Shown: in pieces, positions 11,313 through 41,085 of the stretch
Position numbering within the stretch: position 1 is the first letter of the stretch
How the letters are laid out: every line of letters begins with the position of its first letter
Source: Rhodothermales bacterium
GTDB lineage: Bacteria; Bacteroidota; Rhodothermia; Rhodothermales; VXPQ01
NCBI GenBank assembly: GCA_022825385.1
Contig: JAJDWX010000011.1
Location: 62,001 to 126,000, forward strand
Length of the DNA: 64,000 nucleotides
Direction: 5' to 3'
Translations under genes and position numbers: made by a program
Notes under the pieces: model-generated
Told to the model about the DNA's origin: nothing
Databases searched by the model: none
What the model saw: only the letters and a program-made list of their open reading frames with translations

Positions 11313-12353
11313 TCAAAGCGTGAACGTTGCTGCGAACACGTTGACGCTGCTGAACACCTTCGAAGGACGGTAGGCGTAATCCACCATCAACCGGCTCGGG
11401 CCGATCGGAAGCAAAAGTCCGCCGCCTACGTTCCACTCGGACCAGTGCACCAGCTCCTGCTCGGTGGCGACGTCCACGCCCCCGCGCACGAAGAGCAGGT
11501 TCTGGAAATTCAATTCCAGCCCGCCTGCATACTGGTTCACGTCGTACGAATTAGACCGATAGTTCGCCAGCACCGTCGCGGTCATGTCGCTGGTGAACTC
11601 CCGCTCGTACACGGCCCCGAAATTCAGCATGGAGGGCAACTCCGATTTTACGTCCCGTATCTCGGCGGGCACTTCGTAGTCCCCAACCGTACTGCTCGAC
11701 GTAACGATCGGGTCCTGAAGCCCTACGCCATTGAAACTGAACTGAGGCCCGAAGTTGCGCAAGCTGACGCCGAAGCGCAACCCGGATTCGCCTACGATGT
11801 AGGTCATGCCCGCGTCCAGCGCCACGGTGCGGGCGTCGATATCGTCGATGCGCTGGCTAAGCCCCTTGAAGGTTATGCCCGCAGCGATGCGGTCCGTCAA
11901 CTGGCGGCCATACGTGAGGCCCACGGCGATGGTGGCGGCGGACCAGGTGTTGTTCGGGTCGATTTCGGGATTCTCCACCGTGGTCTCGGGAATGTCCCCG
12001 TAATCCCAGCTCGTTACCGTAAGCCCGATGTTGCTGGACCCGAAGCGCTGCGCCACGCCAAAGTAATTGACGCCCGTATCCGCTATGTAATTCATGCGGC
12101 TGAACATGGCGGTCGTACTTTGATTGACCAGAATGGCCGCCGGATTCGAGATCAGCGCTTCTACGCCCGAAGCGCCGTTCATCCCGCCGGTCATGGTGGA
12201 AGCGAGCGAAATCGTGCGCGGGGTAACCGGCACCGTCAACTCGGACAGCGCAGAGGTCCCGAACCGCTCGTTGCTTTGCCCCAGGGCCTCGAACGCAACG
12301 AGTCCCGGCAAGAGGGCCAACACGACGACAAGGTGTCGATATTGCTTTTTCAT
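11313..12353 (-). CDS. PorV/PorQ-family outer-membrane protein
   Basis: 346 residues with a signal peptide (MKKQ...ALG-Gln about residue 26). The segment GGMNGASGVEALISNPAA, with its SNPA turn, and alternating amphipathic strands ending in an aromatic residue are typical of PorV/PorQ (FadL-like barrels associated with type IX secretion). PorV in Bacteroidota escorts cargo to the cell-surface attachment complex. It is the last gene of a three-gene operon after a TonB receptor and a sorted surface protein, so a cargo-specific PorV-like role is a reasonable inference. The start ATG is 34 bases after the stop of the previous gene. Confidence 0.85.
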   Translation of the reverse strand: MKKQYRHLVVVLALLPGLVAFEALGQSNERFGTSALSELTVPVTPRTISLASTMTGGMNGASGVEALISNPAAILVNQSTTAMFSRMNYIADTGVNYFGVAQRFGSSNIGLTVTSWDYGDIPETTVENPEIDPNNTWSAATIAVGLTYGRQLTDRIAAGITFKGLSQRIDDIDARTVALDAGMTYIVGESGLRFGVSLRNFGPQFSFNGVGLQDPIVTSSSTVGDYEVPAEIRDVKSELPSMLNFGAVYEREFTSDMTATVLANYRSNSYDVNQYAGGLELNFQNLLFVRGGVDVATEQELVHWSEWNVGGGLLLPIGPSRLMVDYAYRPSKVFSSVNVFAATFTL

Positions 12354-12387: not shown

Positions 12388-15300
12388 TTAGAAGATGTTG
12401 ATGTTCGTTTCCCGGTTGATGACGCCGAACTTCATGACCTTCTCCCCGGCGCCCGGAACGTCGATATGCAGGAAGTACATGCCGCTCGCTACCGGCAAGT
12501 TGCTGTCCGTCGTCAGGTTCCAGTCCAGCGAGGGGCTCGGACCGTCCTTGTACAACGTGCGAACCAGCGTGCCGCTCACCGTATAGACGCGGATGGTCGC
12601 CGTCTGGGGCATGTTCGTGAAACGCACCCGACGATCCTCGTTGCCCGTCTCGTACGCCGAACGGCCGCGGTACGGGTTCGGTACGATGCCGATATCGTCG
12701 ATGGAGGCTTCCAGCACGGAAGCGTCGTTCGTCGAGCGGCCCAGGCCCGCGGTTACGATGCGGAACACGTCGCCCGGCTGGTGCGGCTTCGTGGTCGTGA
12801 TGCGAAACACGGTGCCGATCTCCGGCTCGGACTGAAGGTAGCTCTCAGGACCCGTAGCCGTCGTTACGTCTCCGCCGTTCCACAATACGAACACCGTGCG
12901 GGACATGTAATTCCATACGTCGCATTCCGGTATTTTCGCATTGCCCGACGGATAATACCAGTCCGAACAACCGGCTTCCAACGCGCCCGCGCCCAGCTCC
13001 TCGTACTTCGCCATCGCATCCTCGTAGCCCTGCTGCCCCGGCGTATCGTTCGTCGGATGCATTACGTACACCGGATCCGTCCAAGGATCGTTGAACGCGC
13101 CAGACACCTCGTGATCCGCCCAGTGCGCGTCCCCTGTTGGATTCAACGCATCGTACATAAGGCCCCACTTGCCGTCCTCGGCCACATCGAACAGGAACGG
13201 CACCAGGCGGACGTCATCCGAAGCGTCCGGGCTCGTGCCCACGTTCCACCACTCGAACGGCACGTCCACTACCTGGCCCTTGGTAGCGTCTGACCAGCCG
13301 GGCTTGATCCATGCCTTGCCATTGCCCGTGAAACGCACCTCTACGTCGTTCGGAACGATATGCCCAACCCCGTTGAACGACGCGCCAGCGCCGCCCGTAT
13401 ACTGAAGCGTTCTCCCCAGAAAAGCGGCGTAACTTCCGCGATTGCCGTTCGGCCAGGTGTGAACGAACCAACCGAAATTGCTATTGTTCGTGGATTGCTG
13501 CGTGGGTATGGCGACTGCGCTTGGCGGATCCACGCCGACCGGGCCAGGAAAACCTGGCCAGTTGGCAGCGCCCCAGGCCGGAGGCGAAAGCGGGCCCGCC
13601 GCATTCGCCACCACTTGAAAAGCGTCGAACGCAGGCGTCGGCGCATCGATCGTAACCGCAAGGCCGTCGAATATCATAACGTCTTTTCCAAGCGGGGTCT
13701 CGTCGCCCGTGCGCGCAAAATAATCGACCCCGTCGATGATCGCCTTCCCGTCGGAATCGCGCGTGATCGTGTAGGCCGATTTGCCTGCGCCGACTGCGCC
13801 GTCGGGACCAGCCACCTCGTCCAGCGACTTGAACTCTACCGTGTAACTCGCGCCGGTAACCGCCGCCGGGTCCACCACGCGCCAATGAACCACGCCCTGC
13901 CCGCTCTGCGTAACCGTAACCGCCGAGGAATCCTCCGTGGCGAAATCGCTGTTCAGCGACGAACCGCCTTCCGTGGAAGCAATCTTCGACGGACGAAACG
14001 TAATGTTCGTCGGCGCGCTTTCCAGAATCTTCGGCGTGGAGTTGGGACTGTAGGCGTACGCAGAAATCCCGTAGTAGTAATCCGTGTAGTTCGTCAGATT
14101 CGGCAACGCGAGATTATACCGTATCCCGCTATCCGTTCCCCGAGCCGATACCGCCGGGAGAAAATCGCCCACGTCTCCATCGAATACATCGTCCAGCACC
14201 TTGGTGACCCCGTTCGCCACATCGAAGGTGGCCACCAGCTCGCGCTTGTCCGAAGCAAACGACGACGTGGGATACCGATAGATATTAAATCCCTCGAACG
14301 TATACGTCTTGTCTTCGAGCTCGAATTCGTCCAGGAACCGGTCCGGCACGTCGTACGCCAGAAGGTAGTTATCGCTATTCGACGGATAGCCCCACACGAG
14401 ATGCGCCTGCCCGTCCAGTTCCGAAGCGTACAAGCAATGCCCCGAACCCGGATGCAACTCGGCGTTGGAGGAGTTCGGATTGCAAAGCGGCGGCGCAGGC
14501 GGCGGCAGCGGAATATCGAAGTCAGCGTCGTAGGCTGTCTGCGCCAGGATGTCCGCGGCGCGCAGCGCCGTAACGGAACTCAGGTTGTCCCCGGCCTGGG
14601 CAAACACCACCCCGAACACGATGTCCTGGCTATCTCCCGGCTGCACCGTAAACGGCCCGGTGGATACCACCAGACGACGGTCGCCTGACTGATTTCGTCC
14701 GCCGGAACCATCGTTGTTGACCTCGCTCCAGAACTCGCCGGTAACCGGATCGCCCGGATAGGCGAACTTGGTTCGCGGCCCATCCGTTTGAAAACCGTTT
14801 CCGCCCGTCGTAAGCGACTGTCCGCCACTCCAGAAACCCTGTTGTACGTTGTACACCTCCTGAGCGACACCCGGGTCCTCCGTACCATCGGGACCGCCGT
14901 TGATGAAATACATGAAACTGGTTACGCCCAGCGTATCGCCATCCTCCGTAATGGGTCCCTGAAAAAAGTCGTAGCCCGCCGCGGGCGCCGGACCGTACAC
15001 ATTGTCCATGGCGTTGTCGTTGTACACATAGCCCAGACTCAGCGTGGTGTCCACGCCCACGAAATCGTCCGACGCATTCCCCAAATCCGGATCGGAGAAA
15101 ATGGAAAGAAACGTATTGGTAAGCGGCTCGGTGCCCTTGTACGTTACGTTGTATCTGAAAAACGTCGTGTTGCCCAACGCGTCCGCCCGGTTAAACGCAA
15201 AGGCGTGCACCCGCACCTCTACGCCGATCGGCGCAGCCTGCGTTCTGCGGTGCGCGTTCCCCACGTCGTTCATGATCCACCAGACGGCCTGATCCCCGAT

Positions 15301-15918
15301 CAGGTCGGGACGGTCGCCCGCCGCAAGGTCGTAATTGCCCTCCGTGCCGTCCCCGTCTATCACCGGAGCGCCCAGATCGTACGGCCATTCCGCCAGATCC
15401 GCGGTAGCTTGCCCCGTCGCCTCGTAATTCTGAATATCGCTCCGACTCACCTTGTACAGGCGATCATACGCCGAGCAATCGTCCGGATTCACCGGGCGTC
15501 CGTCCGACCCCAAGGGACCCGGCCAGAATTCGAAGTTGCTGTACGTGGAGCCCGCGGTGCGTAACTCGTCCCCCACCATGCCGCCTATCCAGATGCCCAT
15601 CGCATAGATAGGCGAATGTCCGGAGGCTTTGGGCACAATGTATTGCGCCTCGGCGCCGTTGCCGTAGGCAATGCTCCCGATATTGAAAAGACGTACGCGG
15701 GCATTGTTGGCGTCCAGGTCTTTCTGCGCCAGGCCCAGCGTGCACTTTCCGGGATCCGGACCCGATCCGCTGGTGCGGAGCAGGGTGGATGAAGATTCTG
15801 CTTGCCGCTTCTTCTTGTCCTTGTCGTCCTTGTCCTTATCGGCGTCTGCGAAAGCGCTGGACGCAGGGATCAGGCATGCGGCGAAAATGAACGGCAGGTA
15901 TCGTGTAAGCTGCTTCAT
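12388..15918 (-). CDS. Large surface protein with type IX-like C-terminal sorting domain
   Basis: 1176 residues. A signal peptide (AFA-Asp about 24-25) is followed by a highly charged Lys/Asp linker at 25-44. The body is rich in Gly, Asn, Asp and Thr, with beta-sandwich-like segments, and has no catalytic motif I recognise. The last about 90 residues start with VPNPYRG, run through IRVYTVSGTLVRTL and LPVASGMYFLHI and end near MKFGVI: this is the Por secretion-system C-terminal (FlgD-like) sorting domain. It is therefore probably secreted and anchored at the surface. It sits between a TonB receptor and a PorV-like protein, as in other Rhodothermia-type operons. The substrate or ligand is unknown. 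Confidence 0.82.
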   Translation of the reverse strand: MKQLTRYLPFIFAACLIPASSAFADADKDKDDKDKKKRQAESSSTLLRTSGSGPDPGKCTLGLAQKDLDANNARVRLFNIGSIAYGNGAEAQYIVPKASGHSPIYAMGIWIGGMVGDELRTAGSTYSNFEFWPGPLGSDGRPVNPDDCSAYDRLYKVSRSDIQNYEATGQATADLAEWPYDLGAPVIDGDGTEGNYDLAAGDRPDLIGDQAVWWIMNDVGNAHRRTQAAPIGVEVRVHAFAFNRADALGNTTFFRYNVTYKGTEPLTNTFLSIFSDPDLGNASDDFVGVDTTLSLGYVYNDNAMDNVYGPAPAAGYDFFQGPITEDGDTLGVTSFMYFINGGPDGTEDPGVAQEVYNVQQGFWSGGQSLTTGGNGFQTDGPRTKFAYPGDPVTGEFWSEVNNDGSGGRNQSGDRRLVVSTGPFTVQPGDSQDIVFGVVFAQAGDNLSSVTALRAADILAQTAYDADFDIPLPPPAPPLCNPNSSNAELHPGSGHCLYASELDGQAHLVWGYPSNSDNYLLAYDVPDRFLDEFELEDKTYTFEGFNIYRYPTSSFASDKRELVATFDVANGVTKVLDDVFDGDVGDFLPAVSARGTDSGIRYNLALPNLTNYTDYYYGISAYAYSPNSTPKILESAPTNITFRPSKIASTEGGSSLNSDFATEDSSAVTVTQSGQGVVHWRVVDPAAVTGASYTVEFKSLDEVAGPDGAVGAGKSAYTITRDSDGKAIIDGVDYFARTGDETPLGKDVMIFDGLAVTIDAPTPAFDAFQVVANAAGPLSPPAWGAANWPGFPGPVGVDPPSAVAIPTQQSTNNSNFGWFVHTWPNGNRGSYAAFLGRTLQYTGGAGASFNGVGHIVPNDVEVRFTGNGKAWIKPGWSDATKGQVVDVPFEWWNVGTSPDASDDVRLVPFLFDVAEDGKWGLMYDALNPTGDAHWADHEVSGAFNDPWTDPVYVMHPTNDTPGQQGYEDAMAKYEELGAGALEAGCSDWYYPSGNAKIPECDVWNYMSRTVFVLWNGGDVTTATGPESYLQSEPEIGTVFRITTTKPHQPGDVFRIVTAGLGRSTNDASVLEASIDDIGIVPNPYRGRSAYETGNEDRRVRFTNMPQTATIRVYTVSGTLVRTLYKDGPSPSLDWNLTTDSNLPVASGMYFLHIDVPGAGEKVMKFGVINRETNINIF

Positions 15919-35265: not shown

Positions 35266-36198
35266 TCACCACTGGTAGGTAAGCGTCAGGATATGGCCCG
35301 GCCCTTCATAGCCGCTCTGGAACGCCACGTAGGCGTAATCGAAGAGCGCCTTGTCCAGGTTCAGCCCGATCCCGAAAGACGGCCCCCGAAGCGCGTCGTG
35401 GGTGACGAAGCCGCCGCGCAGCGTAACCATGTCCAGCGCCTCCGCTCCCAAACCAAAATGCCATTGCGTACGCTTCGAATCCAGGAATCGGGAAATTTCC
35501 ACCGTGGCGAACAGCTGCGCCAGCGTCGCGTCGTCTTCCTGCAGCCGGATATGGAAAGGGTGCGCCGCCACCCCCGCCCGCAGCGCGCGCGGCAGCCGGG
35601 TAGCCTCTGACGCAAGGCGAGACATCCTGCCTATGTTCTGCACCGCCGCGCCGAACTGCATCCCCCGGATCGGGAGGTCGGCCTGCACGCCTGCGTCGAA
35701 AGCATACCCCCGGGAAGAATTCGTAAAAATGCGCTCAAGCAAATATTTGGCCGTGATCCCCGCCCGAAAAGGTCCGAACCGGCGCCCATAGGACGCTCCG
35801 CTGCTTACGAATTGCACATCGAAAAACCCTTCCGGCTCGCCGGGACCGGAGCGGGCTTCCAGGTCGCCGCTTTCCATCGCCGTAACGAACAATCCGACCG
35901 CCGCCTTCTCGCCCACGCCCAGCCGCGAAGCCGCGGCGTAACTCCCCGTGCCCAGCACCCACGAATAGTAAGACAACGAGGCCGTATTTCGTTCGGCGGC
36001 GGCCAATCCCGCCGGATTCCAGAACGTGCTGAACGCATCCTGGCTCCACGCCACCTGTCCGTCGCCCAGGGCGCCTGCTTCGGCGTTGACGCCATTGCGC
36101 AAAAACGCAAACCCGCCGTTCTGCGCCGCGGACGACCCGGCGGCGACAAACGCAACGATTCCCAATATGCACAAACGCCTGGCCATGGATTGCGTCAC
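35266..36198 (-). CDS. PorV/PorQ-family outer-membrane protein (envelope operon, gene 4)
   Basis: 310 residues with a signal peptide (SSA-Ala-Gln about 25). FAFLRNGVNAEAGALGDGQVA and FSTFWNPAGLA form the typical N-terminal hatch, with WNPAG in place of SNPA; amphipathic strands follow and the C terminus ends in TLTYQW. The first possible start is GTG at 36198, overlapping the TGA of the previous gene (GTGA); an ATG at 36186 would shorten it by four residues. It is the last of four coupled genes and has a sister barrel immediately before it. Confidence 0.82.
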   Translation of the reverse strand: MTQSMARRLCILGIVAFVAAGSSAAQNGGFAFLRNGVNAEAGALGDGQVAWSQDAFSTFWNPAGLAAAERNTASLSYYSWVLGTGSYAAASRLGVGEKAAVGLFVTAMESGDLEARSGPGEPEGFFDVQFVSSGASYGRRFGPFRAGITAKYLLERIFTNSSRGYAFDAGVQADLPIRGMQFGAAVQNIGRMSRLASEATRLPRALRAGVAAHPFHIRLQEDDATLAQLFATVEISRFLDSKRTQWHFGLGAEALDMVTLRGGFVTHDALRGPSFGIGLNLDKALFDYAYVAFQSGYEGPGHILTLTYQW

Positions 36199-37232
36199 AA
36201 AAGGATGCGGAGCGTAACGAGGTGCAGCATGCCTGCGTCGTGCGGCTCCAGAAGCAGGCCGTACTCGGCCCGCAAGGTCAGGTTTCCTATGGGTCTGTCT
36301 ATGGCGAACCCGGCGGAAGGCGCCTGCCCCGAAAGAGCGCGGCCCATGCGATCCAGCCCGGCGCGCAACGTCAGGAACTCTGCGATTTCGTACTCGGCCC
36401 CTGCCCGAAAACCCGCTTCGTGTACGGTTGCCCGCCGCGCCTCGAACGCTTCGAGCGGCACGGAGCCGATCCGTTGCATACTGCGGACCCGGTATTCCAG
36501 ATCCGAAACGCGCGATTCGTATTCGGCGAGCACTTGCAAACGATACGCCGGAAAACGGTACGACGCGCCCACGCGCAAACGCAAGGGAAACCGGTCGGAA
36601 GTCGCGCCGCCCTCCGAACCGTACAGGCCGGAAGTGTCCCAGGAATAGCGGGCAAGGAGGTCGTCCATCGCAAAAGCAACGCGGAGGCGATCCGTGGCGT
36701 CGAACAGGAGACCCGCATCGACGCCAATGCTGTTCTCCGGATCGAGGCCCTCGTTCAGGTCCGTACGGAAAAGCTGCAACCCGAGGCCTGCCGTCAATCG
36801 AGACCCGAAGCGCGCGCCGAAAGCAAGGAAAAACGCGAATTCGTCCGTCGAATACGTTTGCGTGTGGTACCCGCTGGCGTCCCGCCCGTCGATATCGGAC
36901 ACCCCGGCATGGATCAATCCCGCGGCCAGGCCCGCGTGGGGCTGAATGGGCGTGGCGAATTGCACAAACTGCATCTCCCGGTCAAACCGCATGAACGCGG
37001 ACGAGAGGAGTATCTGCTGTTGCATGGTTTGCGGAGCGAGGGCCGGATTGTAGTACGGCGAGGCGTTGCCGCTCGCGTCCGCAACCAGCGCATTCCCCAT
37101 CGCAATGCCCCGCGCGCCAAAACCCATGCGCGAAAAAGCCCCCGCCGCCGATTGCCCCCATGCGGCGGCGACCGGAAGCAGCGCCAGCGCGCAGGCGGCG
37201 CAAATCGTTATGTACGCCCTGCGCGGCGTCAT
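36195..37232 (-). CDS. PorV/PorQ-like outer-membrane barrel protein (envelope operon, gene 3)
   Basis: 345 residues, signal peptide to about AWG-Gln27. FSRMGFGARGIAMGNALVAD with SPYYNPALAP is the FadL/PorV-type N-terminal signature, and the rest is alternating strands typical of a barrel. The ATG at 37232 overlaps the end of the propeller gene (ATGA). With the downstream barrel it forms a tandem pair of related but divergent proteins, suggesting separate partners or a two-barrel complex; this is an inference. Confidence 0.82.
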   Translation of the reverse strand: MTPRRAYITICAACALALLPVAAAWGQSAAGAFSRMGFGARGIAMGNALVADASGNASPYYNPALAPQTMQQQILLSSAFMRFDREMQFVQFATPIQPHAGLAAGLIHAGVSDIDGRDASGYHTQTYSTDEFAFFLAFGARFGSRLTAGLGLQLFRTDLNEGLDPENSIGVDAGLLFDATDRLRVAFAMDDLLARYSWDTSGLYGSEGGATSDRFPLRLRVGASYRFPAYRLQVLAEYESRVSDLEYRVRSMQRIGSVPLEAFEARRATVHEAGFRAGAEYEIAEFLTLRAGLDRMGRALSGQAPSAGFAIDRPIGNLTLRAEYGLLLEPHDAGMLHLVTLRILL

Positions 37233-38797
37233 TCGAGCACCTGAATTTTGCCGTGCGCGGCGCGCGCGCCCGCGACGGTATAGAAATACACGCCGTTCGC
37301 CACGCGAAAACCGTTGCGGTCGGTTCCGTCCCAGGTCGCTTCCCGCTCGCCTGCCGAGCCTACGCTTGCCGTCAGTTCGCGGACGAGATGCATCTGAAAA
37401 TCGAATATGCGAATGCGGTCGGCGCCGCCGTCCGAATCGTACCGGATGCGCACGAACCGGTCGCTGGCGGGCGAAAACGGATTCGGGTAGGCGTACGTGT
37501 CTACGTCCGGGCGGTCGTCCGTGGGCGTCTCCGGGTGCAGCGGCACGTCGGTCCGGTAAATGCGCCACGTGTCGCCGCCATTCTCGCTCTTCATAAGTCC
37601 GTCCGACGTGCCCGCCCATAACGCATTGGACGTCCGCGCGACGGCGTACACGGACAGGTCCGGGCGAATCATTCGATCCGGGTCCTCGGCGTCCCGAAAA
37701 TGCCGGATCGTCCGCCAGGTGACGCCGGCGTCGCGCGTAACGAAAAGGCCGTTTTCCCCGGCGACATACACCGTCCTGGCGTCCTCGAAGGCAAAGTCGT
37801 GCACCCGCTCGCCGATCAGAACCTGTTCGAACGTTTCGCCTCCGTCCCGGGTCACCGTAACGCCGTATTTCTCCGACGGCCCGGCCTCGGCGGGATCGTT
37901 CACTGGCCAGGTAGCCATCCAGATCGGATTCCGGGCTCCGGGCAAGGGCTGCTCCTCTATGGAAGTAACCCAGTTGCCCGTCAGGGACCAGGACGTGCCG
38001 TCCGCAACGAAACGCCGCCACGCCAACCCGTCCGAAGACCGATTCAGCCCGCCCGCCGTGCCGGCCCAGATGGTCCCGTCCTCGGCGACAAGGACGCTAA
38101 ATCCCCGGTGGTTCAAGTGTCCGTCCAGGCCATCCCGCGATATGGGCGACACGGAAAAATCGTACGACGAATCCGGGTGAATCGAATGCAGGAAATCCGG
38201 CGGAAGCACAACCCGCTCCCAGGTCTGCCCATCGTCCCGCGACCGGCGCACGCCGCTGGCCCAGGCGGCCACCCACACCTCTTTCCGCACCGGGTCGTAG
38301 TCGATGTCGAAAGGCGGGCTTTGCTCCGGCACGATCACCGGCAACGCGGGCAGCACGGATACGCCATATTCTTCGGTCGTATCGTCCGGGTCGTCGAGAT
38401 GGGGCGGGCGCCAGTGAAACATCTCGCTTCCGGCCGGATGCGGCGCAAAACCCGTGAAAAAGACATACCCTTCCACGCTGTTGACCGTCTGGCCGTCTTC
38501 CGTTCTGGAGGAACCGACGCCCGCCCACACCACAGGGCCTTCCACGTCCAGCGAATACACGCTCAGTTGTCGCGTCGCCAGCGAATCGACGTCGGCTACA
38601 AGCCAGGTGCGCCCGCCATCCGGCGTCATATTCAGAAACGGCCCGACCCAGAGCGCGTCGCCTTCCGCGTGCAGGTTCGTCACGCTGTTGCGCAAAATGC
38701 CGGGAACGGGCAAGAGTCCCTCCGGCCCATCGACTTGCGCCTGCGCCTGCGAAACAAGCAGTAAACCGGCGAATATGCCAAACAGCGCGCGCCTCAT
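37229..38797 (-). CDS. Secreted beta-propeller (BNR/sortilin-like) with C-terminal sorting domain (envelope operon, gene 2)
   Basis: 522 residues. Signal peptide to about AQA-Gln21. Repeated Asp-x-Gly-x-Thr-Trp blades (SRDDGQTWERV, TRDGGETFEQV, TRDAGVTWRTI, SENGGDTWRIY) show an Asp-box propeller of the BNR/Vps10 type. The end YPNPFSP...IRIFDFQMHLVREL...NGVYFYTV is a FlgD-like type IX-type sorting domain. No sialidase catalytic residues are evident, so binding is more likely than hydrolysis. It overlaps both neighbours by four bases. Confidence 0.8.
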   Translation of the reverse strand: MRRALFGIFAGLLLVSQAQAQVDGPEGLLPVPGILRNSVTNLHAEGDALWVGPFLNMTPDGGRTWLVADVDSLATRQLSVYSLDVEGPVVWAGVGSSRTEDGQTVNSVEGYVFFTGFAPHPAGSEMFHWRPPHLDDPDDTTEEYGVSVLPALPVIVPEQSPPFDIDYDPVRKEVWVAAWASGVRRSRDDGQTWERVVLPPDFLHSIHPDSSYDFSVSPISRDGLDGHLNHRGFSVLVAEDGTIWAGTAGGLNRSSDGLAWRRFVADGTSWSLTGNWVTSIEEQPLPGARNPIWMATWPVNDPAEAGPSEKYGVTVTRDGGETFEQVLIGERVHDFAFEDARTVYVAGENGLFVTRDAGVTWRTIRHFRDAEDPDRMIRPDLSVYAVARTSNALWAGTSDGLMKSENGGDTWRIYRTDVPLHPETPTDDRPDVDTYAYPNPFSPASDRFVRIRYDSDGGADRIRIFDFQMHLVRELTASVGSAGEREATWDGTDRNGFRVANGVYFYTVAGARAAHGKIQVLE

Positions 38798-39579
38798 TCC
38801 ACCACCGTCTTTGCTTCCGCGACATTGCTGAGCAAACCGGCCCGGTCTCGCGCCTGGAAAGCAAACGTAACGATTCCCGGATTATTCGACGACTCGATCT
38901 GCACGATGCGCGTATAGCGACCGTCGGCGGCGGCCGCATCCCCGCCCACTCCGTCGTCAAGCATCGCAATCCGGTCGGCGGGCCTGTCCGTATTCCAGAA
39001 TTCGACGGCGGCGATATTGGAAAGCCCGTCGGGATCGGAAACCACGGCGGCGATTTCCAGCAAAACAGGGTCTTCGCCCTCCTCAGGCCGATGCAAGGTG
39101 TCCGGCGCCGAAACCGCATGAATGACCGGCGGCGAACCGTCTCCCGAAACAAGCAACGTGCCGCGCACCGTATTGCTCAACATGCCTTCCCGGTCTTCCG
39201 CAAAAACCAGCACGGTGTACGCGCCGAGTTCGCCCGCCGGAATCGTCACGTCGGAACGGCCCGTGTACCGCCCGCCGTTTCCGTAGTCCAGCAGGCCCTC
39301 GGCAAGCGTCGTATCTCCAAATACGACGAAGGAGACCGCAGCAATGTCCTGGTCCGGGTCCCGCGCCGTAACCTCCATGGAAAGGGGAATGACCGCATCG
39401 GCGGCGTCGTCGCCAAGCGGGGCGATAAATTCTTGCGGCGAGAAGGAGAATTCGGACAACGCCGGCGGCGAGTCCGCAGGATCCAGCGGGCCGGGCGCCT
39501 GATCGCACGCGCCGAGAACCAGGGCGCCTGCAAAAATCCCCGAGGCAAGCGCCGTCGTATAGCGAAAGGAACGGAACAA
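38794..39579 (-). CDS. Lipoprotein with Ig-like domains (envelope operon, gene 1)
   Basis: 261 residues with a lipoprotein signal (LVLGA-Cys25). Two beta-sandwich-like parts follow (about 40-145 and 150-261); the second contains MLDDGVGGDAAAADGRYT, a pattern seen in choice-of-anchor-type Ig domains. No catalytic motif. The gene opens a four-gene minus-strand operon whose members overlap at every junction. The 294 bases before it, up to the M50 protease, contain no gene and no certain promoter. Confidence 0.72.
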   Translation of the reverse strand: MFRSFRYTTALASGIFAGALVLGACDQAPGPLDPADSPPALSEFSFSPQEFIAPLGDDAADAVIPLSMEVTARDPDQDIAAVSFVVFGDTTLAEGLLDYGNGGRYTGRSDVTIPAGELGAYTVLVFAEDREGMLSNTVRGTLLVSGDGSPPVIHAVSAPDTLHRPEEGEDPVLLEIAAVVSDPDGLSNIAAVEFWNTDRPADRIAMLDDGVGGDAAAADGRYTRIVQIESSNNPGIVTFAFQARDRAGLLSNVAEAKTVVE

Positions 39580-39873: not shown

Positions 39874-41085
39874 TCACGCCACGTACAGAGGCCGGAAACT
39901 GAAACACAGGATAAAAATCAGTATGCCGAGCAAACCCAGCGCCATGCGTCCGGGCGTGAGGGGCTCCTCGCGAAGGACGGGCGGGTGGTCGATCTTCACC
40001 AGAAAGACGAGCAACAGGCCCCATAGCAGCCACCCCGTGTAGGCAAAATCCTGCATCCAAGGGAAAACGTACCTCGCCAGGGCGGCCAACGCCATGAGGC
40101 CCGCCAGCGCCAGGGCAATGCGTTTCAGGTTTCCGGGAAAAATTTTCGACAGATAGAAATACAATATGCCCGCCAGAATGAACCAGGAACCGCTCCCGAG
40201 CGGGGAATACAGCGCGTAAAGCAACGGCGGGATTTCGAGCGCGAACCCGATGGCGCCCGACAGCAGGAGCGCAAGCAGGAAAGCCCGGGCGAGGCGGGCA
40301 TGCCAAACCCGTCCGAATAAGGCGTACGTAATGTGTCCCCCGTCAAGTTGTCCGACAGGCAACAGGTTCAACGCCGTAAAAAACAGGCCCAGCCATCCGG
40401 CGAACAACATGGGATAATGATACATCTCCCAGTTGGGAGGCGCGTCGGCGAAGAATTGCCGGAGGAATTTGTACAACAGCGTATCGCCTACGACCAGCGT
40501 AATCGCTCCGTCGCCCGCTCCGGGCAAGCGGTCCGGATAGCGCCCGAATTGCTCCACATACCGATGGATGGCTTCGTGCCCCGGACCCACGTCGAAGATA
40601 TACGTGACGGGCGGCAGGGTAGCGAAGGCCGCAAGCAGGAGCGCAAGGGCGACCGCGAAACCGGCAAGCGGCCCGGCGGCCCCTATGTCGAACAGTTTCC
40701 GCAACGAGGGCACGGGTTCCCGAATGCGAATCACCGCGCCCAGCGTACCCACCCCGAAATACGGGAGCGGAATGTAGTAGGGCAGCGACGCAGCCACCCC
40801 ATGATACCGGGCGGCGAAATAATGCCCGAACTCGTGCACGGTCAAAAAAAGCAAGAGGGACAACCCGAAACGCAAGCCGTCCGCCAGATACGCCGACCAC
40901 CCTTCGCTTGCGTACGCCGCCAACCGACCGGTAAGGTTGCCCCCCTCCCATACCGTGGTCGCCAGCGTACACGCGAAAAGCAGGGCGTGGAACCAGTAGC
41001 GATCCCGGGGCTTCCGCGCAGCGGGGCGGGCGGGCGGGTCCGCCTCGGAAAACAATGCGCGGGGTTCGCTATGCGACGGATACAT
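39874..41085 (-). CDS. Site-2-protease-like M50 membrane metalloprotease
   Basis: 403 residues, about nine membrane segments. The zinc motif HEFGH at 84-88 and the second motif NLLPVGQLDGGH (Asp ligand) are intact, and a GTLGAVIRI segment follows the first. It resembles the EGY/S2P group more than RseP, because no PDZ domain is visible. About 70 extra residues lie between the motifs (after the Asp-x-Gly-Pro-Gly segment). Substrate unknown; S2P enzymes release membrane-bound regulators. 41 bases after aspC. Confidence 0.88.
   Translation of the reverse strand: MYPSHSEPRALFSEADPPARPAARKPRDRYWFHALLFACTLATTVWEGGNLTGRLAAYASEGWSAYLADGLRFGLSLLLFLTVHEFGHYFAARYHGVAASLPYYIPLPYFGVGTLGAVIRIREPVPSLRKLFDIGAAGPLAGFAVALALLLAAFATLPPVTYIFDVGPGHEAIHRYVEQFGRYPDRLPGAGDGAITLVVGDTLLYKFLRQFFADAPPNWEMYHYPMLFAGWLGLFFTALNLLPVGQLDGGHITYALFGRVWHARLARAFLLALLLSGAIGFALEIPPLLYALYSPLGSGSWFILAGILYFYLSKIFPGNLKRIALALAGLMALAALARYVFPWMQDFAYTGWLLWGLLLVFLVKIDHPPVLREEPLTPGRMALGLLGILIFILCFSFRPLYVA

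Follow-up and report, generated by a model that had tools for sequence, protein, structure and literature searches.

Genes and Predicted Proteins of the Locus

The analyzed window, i.e., the whole stretch of 64,000 nucleotides of a Rhodothermales contig (JAJDWX010000011.1), carries at positions 35266–39579 four open reading frames, termed here LIP, PROP, BAR1 and BAR2, which were all found on the minus strand at the place where the initial annotation had put them (Table 1). The nature predicted there for the four proteins was also recovered, since LIP has a lipobox and an Ig-like model, PROP comprises a propeller and a C-terminal domain, and both barrels score over the PorV/PorQ-family cut-off. 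No description of the LIP-PROP-BAR1-BAR2 gene order, or of PorV paralogues, was found in the open-access literature, and the operon is counted here as apparently undescribed.

Table 1. Features of the LIP-PROP-BAR1-BAR2 locus (positions within the window).
Feature	Position	Strand	Description
LIP	38794..39579	-	Predicted outer-membrane lipoprotein of 261 aa starting with TTG; Cys25 within the lipobox LGAC; Ig/FN3-like domains, two in tandem
PROP	37229..38797	-	522 aa; one propeller between a signal peptide and a C-terminal type IX sorting-type domain
PROP propeller domain	37568..38704	-	Residues about 32–410; basis: model and structural alignments
PROP C-terminal sorting-type domain	37232..37498	-	Residues 434–522, first residues AYPNPF; basis: FlgD_ig, C-terminus of the PorZ model, PorU C-terminal domain
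BAR1	36195..37232	-	PorV/PorQ-family outer-membrane barrel, 345 aa; own clade
BAR2	35266..36186	-	PorV/PorQ-family barrel; 306 aa with the ATG start, the likelier one; own clade; accessory
BAR2 alternative start	GTG at 36198	-	Would give 310 aa
ATGA overlap LIP/PROP	38794..38797	-	
ATGA overlap PROP/BAR1	37229..37232	-	
GTGA at BAR1/BAR2	36195..36198	-	True overlap only with the GTG start of BAR2
M50 (site-2 type) membrane protease gene	39874..41085	-	Upstream of the operon; conserved neighbor in Rhodothermales

The TTG start codon of LIP is the same in all four congener genomes that were compared. The predicted structure of this protein (mean pLDDT 91.3) resolves both Ig/FN3-like domains, for which the fold search returned generic matches of that type only (best Z about 9), and none of the Pfam and NCBIfam models placed an OmpA domain in it. 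The residues that follow the lipobox cysteine were listed in search of a surface-export signal and gave no clear answer. In Salinibacteraceae LIP is shorter, about 150–180 aa.

The model of PROP, which is without a lipobox, is of comparable quality (mean pLDDT 90.9) and shows a single propeller and, after it, a β-sandwich domain. The propeller alone matches many seven-bladed propellers, while the model as a whole finds its best PDB match in PorZ. The C-terminal domain reaches 38.2 bits against FlgD_ig of Pfam (cut-off 27) and only 16.8 bits against TIGR04183, which is under the cut-off of 23; it also matches the C-terminus of the PorZ model (E 1.2e-9), and the C-terminal domain of PorU is among the matches of a profile search with PROP. 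On this basis it is classified, by sequence similarity, as a FlgD_ig/type A-like sorting-type domain, and with FlgD_ig over its cut-off PROP has the C-terminal sorting domain expected of proteins exported by the type IX secretion system (T9SS). This domain is somewhat better conserved than the propeller (51% vs. 46%). The difference was considered as a sign of a fixed partner and set aside, because conservation of this domain is equal or higher in a C25 peptidase and in PorZ.

It was initially claimed that the genes overlap by four bases at every junction and that such coupling suggests a stoichiometric complex. The ATGA overlaps of LIP/PROP and PROP/BAR1 were confirmed and occur likewise in four congeners, whereas the third, GTGA, is probably no overlap. 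The ATG of BAR2 lies 12 bases past the GTG and 8 bases after the BAR1 stop; it is taken as the likelier start because three congeners (L032–L034) have the ATG 17–23 bases after the stop and two of these three (L032 and L034) are without the overlapping GTG, which is present in L031 and L033. By these start assignments, only the first two overlaps are secure. A rough gene list covering part of the window shows a gap of -4 between same-strand genes at the operon junctions and at no others. However, across 80 named loci the junctions stand at -4 or -1 in just 26 of 67 cases for LIP-PROP, 18 of 71 for PROP-BAR1 and 12 of 57 for BAR1-BAR2. The conserved feature is the gene order and not the overlap, which gives no sign of stoichiometry, and the argument from coupling was dropped.

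Conservation of the Gene Order

The gene order was sought in other Bacteroidota, and it recurs far beyond the genus and the class. LIP-PROP-BAR1, often accompanied by BAR2 and by the upstream M50 gene, was found across Rhodothermia, in Melioribacter roseus (Ignavibacteria) and in other families of the phylum. Most of 40 loci, drawn from 39 other genomes of the order, show M50-LIP-PROP-BAR1, and in many families BAR2 comes next. In the 80 named loci the genes adjoin each other in 67 of 67 cases for LIP-PROP, 71 of 72 for PROP-BAR1 and 57 of 57 for BAR1-BAR2.

Within Rhodothermales the synteny reaches unrelated genes, e.g., an aminotransferase and a CPBP protease, as would be the case if the four genes were mere neighbors that form no complex. 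Such a reading is hardly plausible, since those flanking genes vanish outside the order whereas LIP-PROP-BAR1(-BAR2) stay together. Among 24 loci of other classes, which include one of M. roseus, PROP was found in 24, LIP in 22, BAR1 in 22, BAR2 in 19 and M50 in 17, whereas the outer flanking genes of Rhodothermales occur in 0 to 3 of them (AAT, CPBP and BioY in 0–1 each). That the core genes remain together outside the class while the flanking genes drop away is the strongest evidence that the operon is a unit. Moreover, three loci (L101, L104, and L107) are rearranged and the genes are still clustered, which also speaks against mere neighborhood. BAR1 lies upstream of LIP in three loci of families f24 and f40.

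There are also loci that depart from this arrangement. PROP has no BAR1 beside it in L045, L055, and L124; L055 (genome G056, contig C124) is a second copy of PROP that stands alone, and the complete operon is present in that genome as well. The M50 gene was not found beside the operon in Balneolaceae. As for BAR2, the best match in families f3, f10, f11, f13, and f14 is at most 125 bits, i.e., at the level of paralogues, compared with 416–432 bits for true BAR2, so that the gene seems to be lost in the genomes of these families; in one genome each of f24 and f40 a BAR2-like protein (212 and 217 bits) is encoded away from the operon. Judging by these matches, BAR2 is dispensable and accessory. 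The four genes would not form a unit if they were unlinked elsewhere: the linkage holds across classes for LIP-PROP-BAR1 and fails in several families for BAR2, which is lost or unlinked there. The durable core of the operon is LIP-PROP-BAR1, often with the M50 protease gene before it. The first observation made on this locus was mostly right; its argument from overlaps is weak, and the argument from conservation, which was not available to it, is strong.

The Barrels and the Type IX Secretion Genes

Both barrels pass the subfamily cut-off (90 bits) of the PorV/PorQ family NF033709, BAR1 with 97.1 and BAR2 with 128.9 bits. Both fail the PorQ equivalog NF033711 (BAR2 82.9 and BAR1 43.4 bits, cut-off 220) and the PorV equivalog NF033710 (BAR2 45.1 and BAR1 24.9 bits, cut-off 250). 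No match to the PorP/SprF model was present among the Pfam and NCBIfam results for the barrels, where PorV_fam matches instead. In profile searches of solved sequences, a set that may not include BamG, BAR1 and BAR2 returned PorV and TbuX and no BamG, the nearest solved protein to both being PorV. In the maximum-likelihood tree BAR1 and BAR2 each form one clade (support 100/100 and 100/98, respectively), which is separate from PorV and PorQ and includes sequences from Rhodothermia as well as from outside it.

The same genome encodes true PorU with PorV adjoining (contig C35), true PorQ (C29, 250 bits), true PorZ (C8, 369 bits) and SprA (C3, 1876 bits). The assignment of PROP as PorZ and of the barrels as PorQ/PorV was therefore ruled out; PROP reaches only 37.1 bits, over its C-terminal domain alone, against the full-length, two-propeller PorZ equivalog NF052228 (cut-off 260 bits). 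The possibility that BAR1 and BAR2 are ordinary PorV/PorQ was checked and did not hold, given their own clades and the true PorV and PorQ genes elsewhere.

Further barrels of this family were noticed. In the tree, BAR1 is most closely related (support 88/76) to a PorV-family barrel that has no sorting-domain neighbor and is common to this genome (L214, G000:C20:30846-31808) and Salinibacteraceae (L217, G018:C1:1130556). The window itself contains a second pair on the minus strand, a 1176-aa protein with a sorting-domain-like end (12388–15918) followed by a PorV-family barrel (11313–12353). Three more loci of the same genome (L205, L210, and L212) hold proteins with sorting-domain-like ends directly adjoining PorV-family barrels, one such arrangement being PorU-PorV with a 1043-aa protein after it. 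Given these additional pairs, it may be common in these bacteria for such proteins to have dedicated PorV-type partners.

The distribution of PROP and SprA was compared across 394 sampled genomes of the phylum. SprA was taken as the marker of T9SS because none of the 12 genomes tested from the order matched the GldM model over cut-off, though SprA is present; the motor protein of those 12 genomes must be divergent or different. PROP is present in 166 of the 394 genomes, nearly always as a single copy, and all 166 are among the 302 genomes with SprA, so that the genomes encoding PROP do have the translocon gene that a T9SS-exported protein calls for. This is the pattern expected of a SprA-exported protein, shared descent weakening it as statistics.

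Strict co-occurrence with SprA would also suit an operon that belongs to the T9SS machine as an accessory, e.g., as a second unit that delivers or attaches LPS or glycans and acts on other cargos, and so would the structural match of PROP to PorZ and the retention of the operon in Salinibacteraceae, where PorU and PorZ were not found over cut-off. We consider this decidedly unlikely, since 136 of the 302 sampled genomes with SprA lack PROP. Most Bacteroidota with SprA lack the operon, which is thus no general T9SS part.

The Salinibacteraceae (family f14, inferred via matching loci with Salinibacter altiplanensis, L193) appear to have a reduced type IX system. In seven genomes (G018, G028, G037, G043, G049, G055, and G406) PorU and PorZ were not found over cut-off, while SprA is kept and PROP is kept with its C-terminal domain. 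BAR1 and PorV are present in all six genomes checked for barrels, and PorQ is absent over cut-off in all three checked for it. Six of the seven encode a larger C25-type peptidase with partial similarity to PorU, which might act as a sortase in Salinibacteraceae; in other families a peptidase of that kind occurs alongside true PorU.

These data bear on the view that PROP is an ordinary T9SS cargo, i.e., that it is collected by PorV, cleaved by PorU at its C-terminal domain and then LPS-anchored or released, BAR1 and BAR2 being mere helpers or unrelated transporters. PorU, PorV, PorQ, and PorZ are all at hand in the genome studied, and the C-terminal domain of PROP is of the general cargo kind, with nothing special in its conservation. 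This explanation is nevertheless unlikely, as the seven Salinibacteraceae genomes retain PROP together with that domain though PorU is missing, and BAR1 still adjoins PROP across classes.

Proposed Mechanism and Comparison With Known Systems

What can be read from the sequences, i.e., the gene order and its conservation, the protein families, the sorting-type domain and the co-occurrence with SprA, makes us lean towards a model in which the type IX system exports PROP, BAR1 (optionally together with BAR2) holds it, and LIP serves as a partner. Beyond that, we infer the export route, the binding of PROP by BAR1, its non-cleavage, any propeller ligand and the placement of LIP. PROP would cross the inner membrane by Sec and exit through the SprA/Sov translocon via its C-terminal domain. 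BAR1 would be a dedicated PorV-type barrel that takes over PROP at the surface with the C-terminal domain still attached, in a way likened to PorZ held by PorQ and PorU held by PorV; PROP is probably held uncleaved. BAR2, where present, would be the second barrel of the same putative complex, and LIP, with its one or two Ig-like domains, a structural partner.

There are published precedents. In Porphyromonas gingivalis integral barrels of the PorV/PorQ family anchor the surface proteins PorZ and PorU, and the sorting domain of PorZ is not cleaved (PMC8545088). In Flavobacterium johnsoniae type B proteins have cognate SprF barrels for their export; some of the operons add a PorE-like lipoprotein, possibly anchoring a static complex (PMC12618676). 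The operon agrees with this logic, its parts being type A-like. Counting against the model are the three loci with PROP and no adjoining BAR1, the families in which BAR2 is lost or unlinked, the absence of the operon from most SprA-bearing Bacteroidota, the shared descent that weakens the co-occurrence with SprA, and the C25-type peptidase, a possible sortase, of six Salinibacteraceae genomes. A bolder proposal, which we regard as doubtful, is that the operon represents a third, sortase-independent type IX attachment complex, older than the split of Rhodothermia and Ignavibacteria, that holds surface proteins non-covalently by dedicated PorV-type barrels and replaces PorU-PorZ-PorQ in Salinibacteraceae.

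One may ask how the operon relates to other surface complexes of Bacteroidota. The BAM complex (BamG-BamK) likewise combines a FadL-type, 14-stranded barrel, BamG, with surface lipoproteins, one of which has a propeller (PMC12578637), so that the barrels and LIP could be thought to serve outer-membrane biogenesis in a similar way. A role of this kind is highly improbable: PROP is no lipoprotein and carries a T9SS-type domain, the barrel profiles lead to PorV and not to BamG (which is possibly not in the set searched), and some Balneolaceae have lost the module, which would not be expected of an essential BAM component. The operons for type B sorting-domain proteins, SprF (PorP-like) barrels and PorE-like proteins of F. 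johnsoniae are similar in that a sorting-domain protein, a cognate barrel and an outer-membrane lipoprotein are proposed to form a static surface complex (PMC12618676; PMC9143113). Here, in contrast, the barrels are of the PorV family, the domain is FlgD_ig/type A-like, and LIP is Ig-like with no OmpA domain detected.

The likeness to PorZ-PorQ and PorU-PorV of P. gingivalis consists in PorZ being a propeller surface protein with a retained type A-like C-terminal domain that is held by a PorV-family barrel (PMC8545088), and in PorZ being the best PDB match of PROP. However, PROP has one propeller whereas PorZ has two, it falls far short of the PorZ cut-off (37 vs. 260 bits, C-terminal domain only), BAR1 and BAR2 lie outside the clades of PorV and PorQ, the true PorZ, PorQ, PorU, and PorV are encoded elsewhere in the genome, and a lipoprotein gene is part of the unit. 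The biology of T9SS rests largely on Porphyromonas and Flavobacterium, with one shuttle, PorV, for all type A domains. The Salinibacteraceae, with SprA and PorV and without PorU/PorZ over cut-off, offer a natural test of type A-like surface retention without a sortase. Set beside the single-shuttle scheme, the operon and the other pairs of sorting-domain proteins and PorV-like barrels in the same genome suggest that, in deep branches of the phylum, individual surface proteins have PorV-type barrels dedicated to them.
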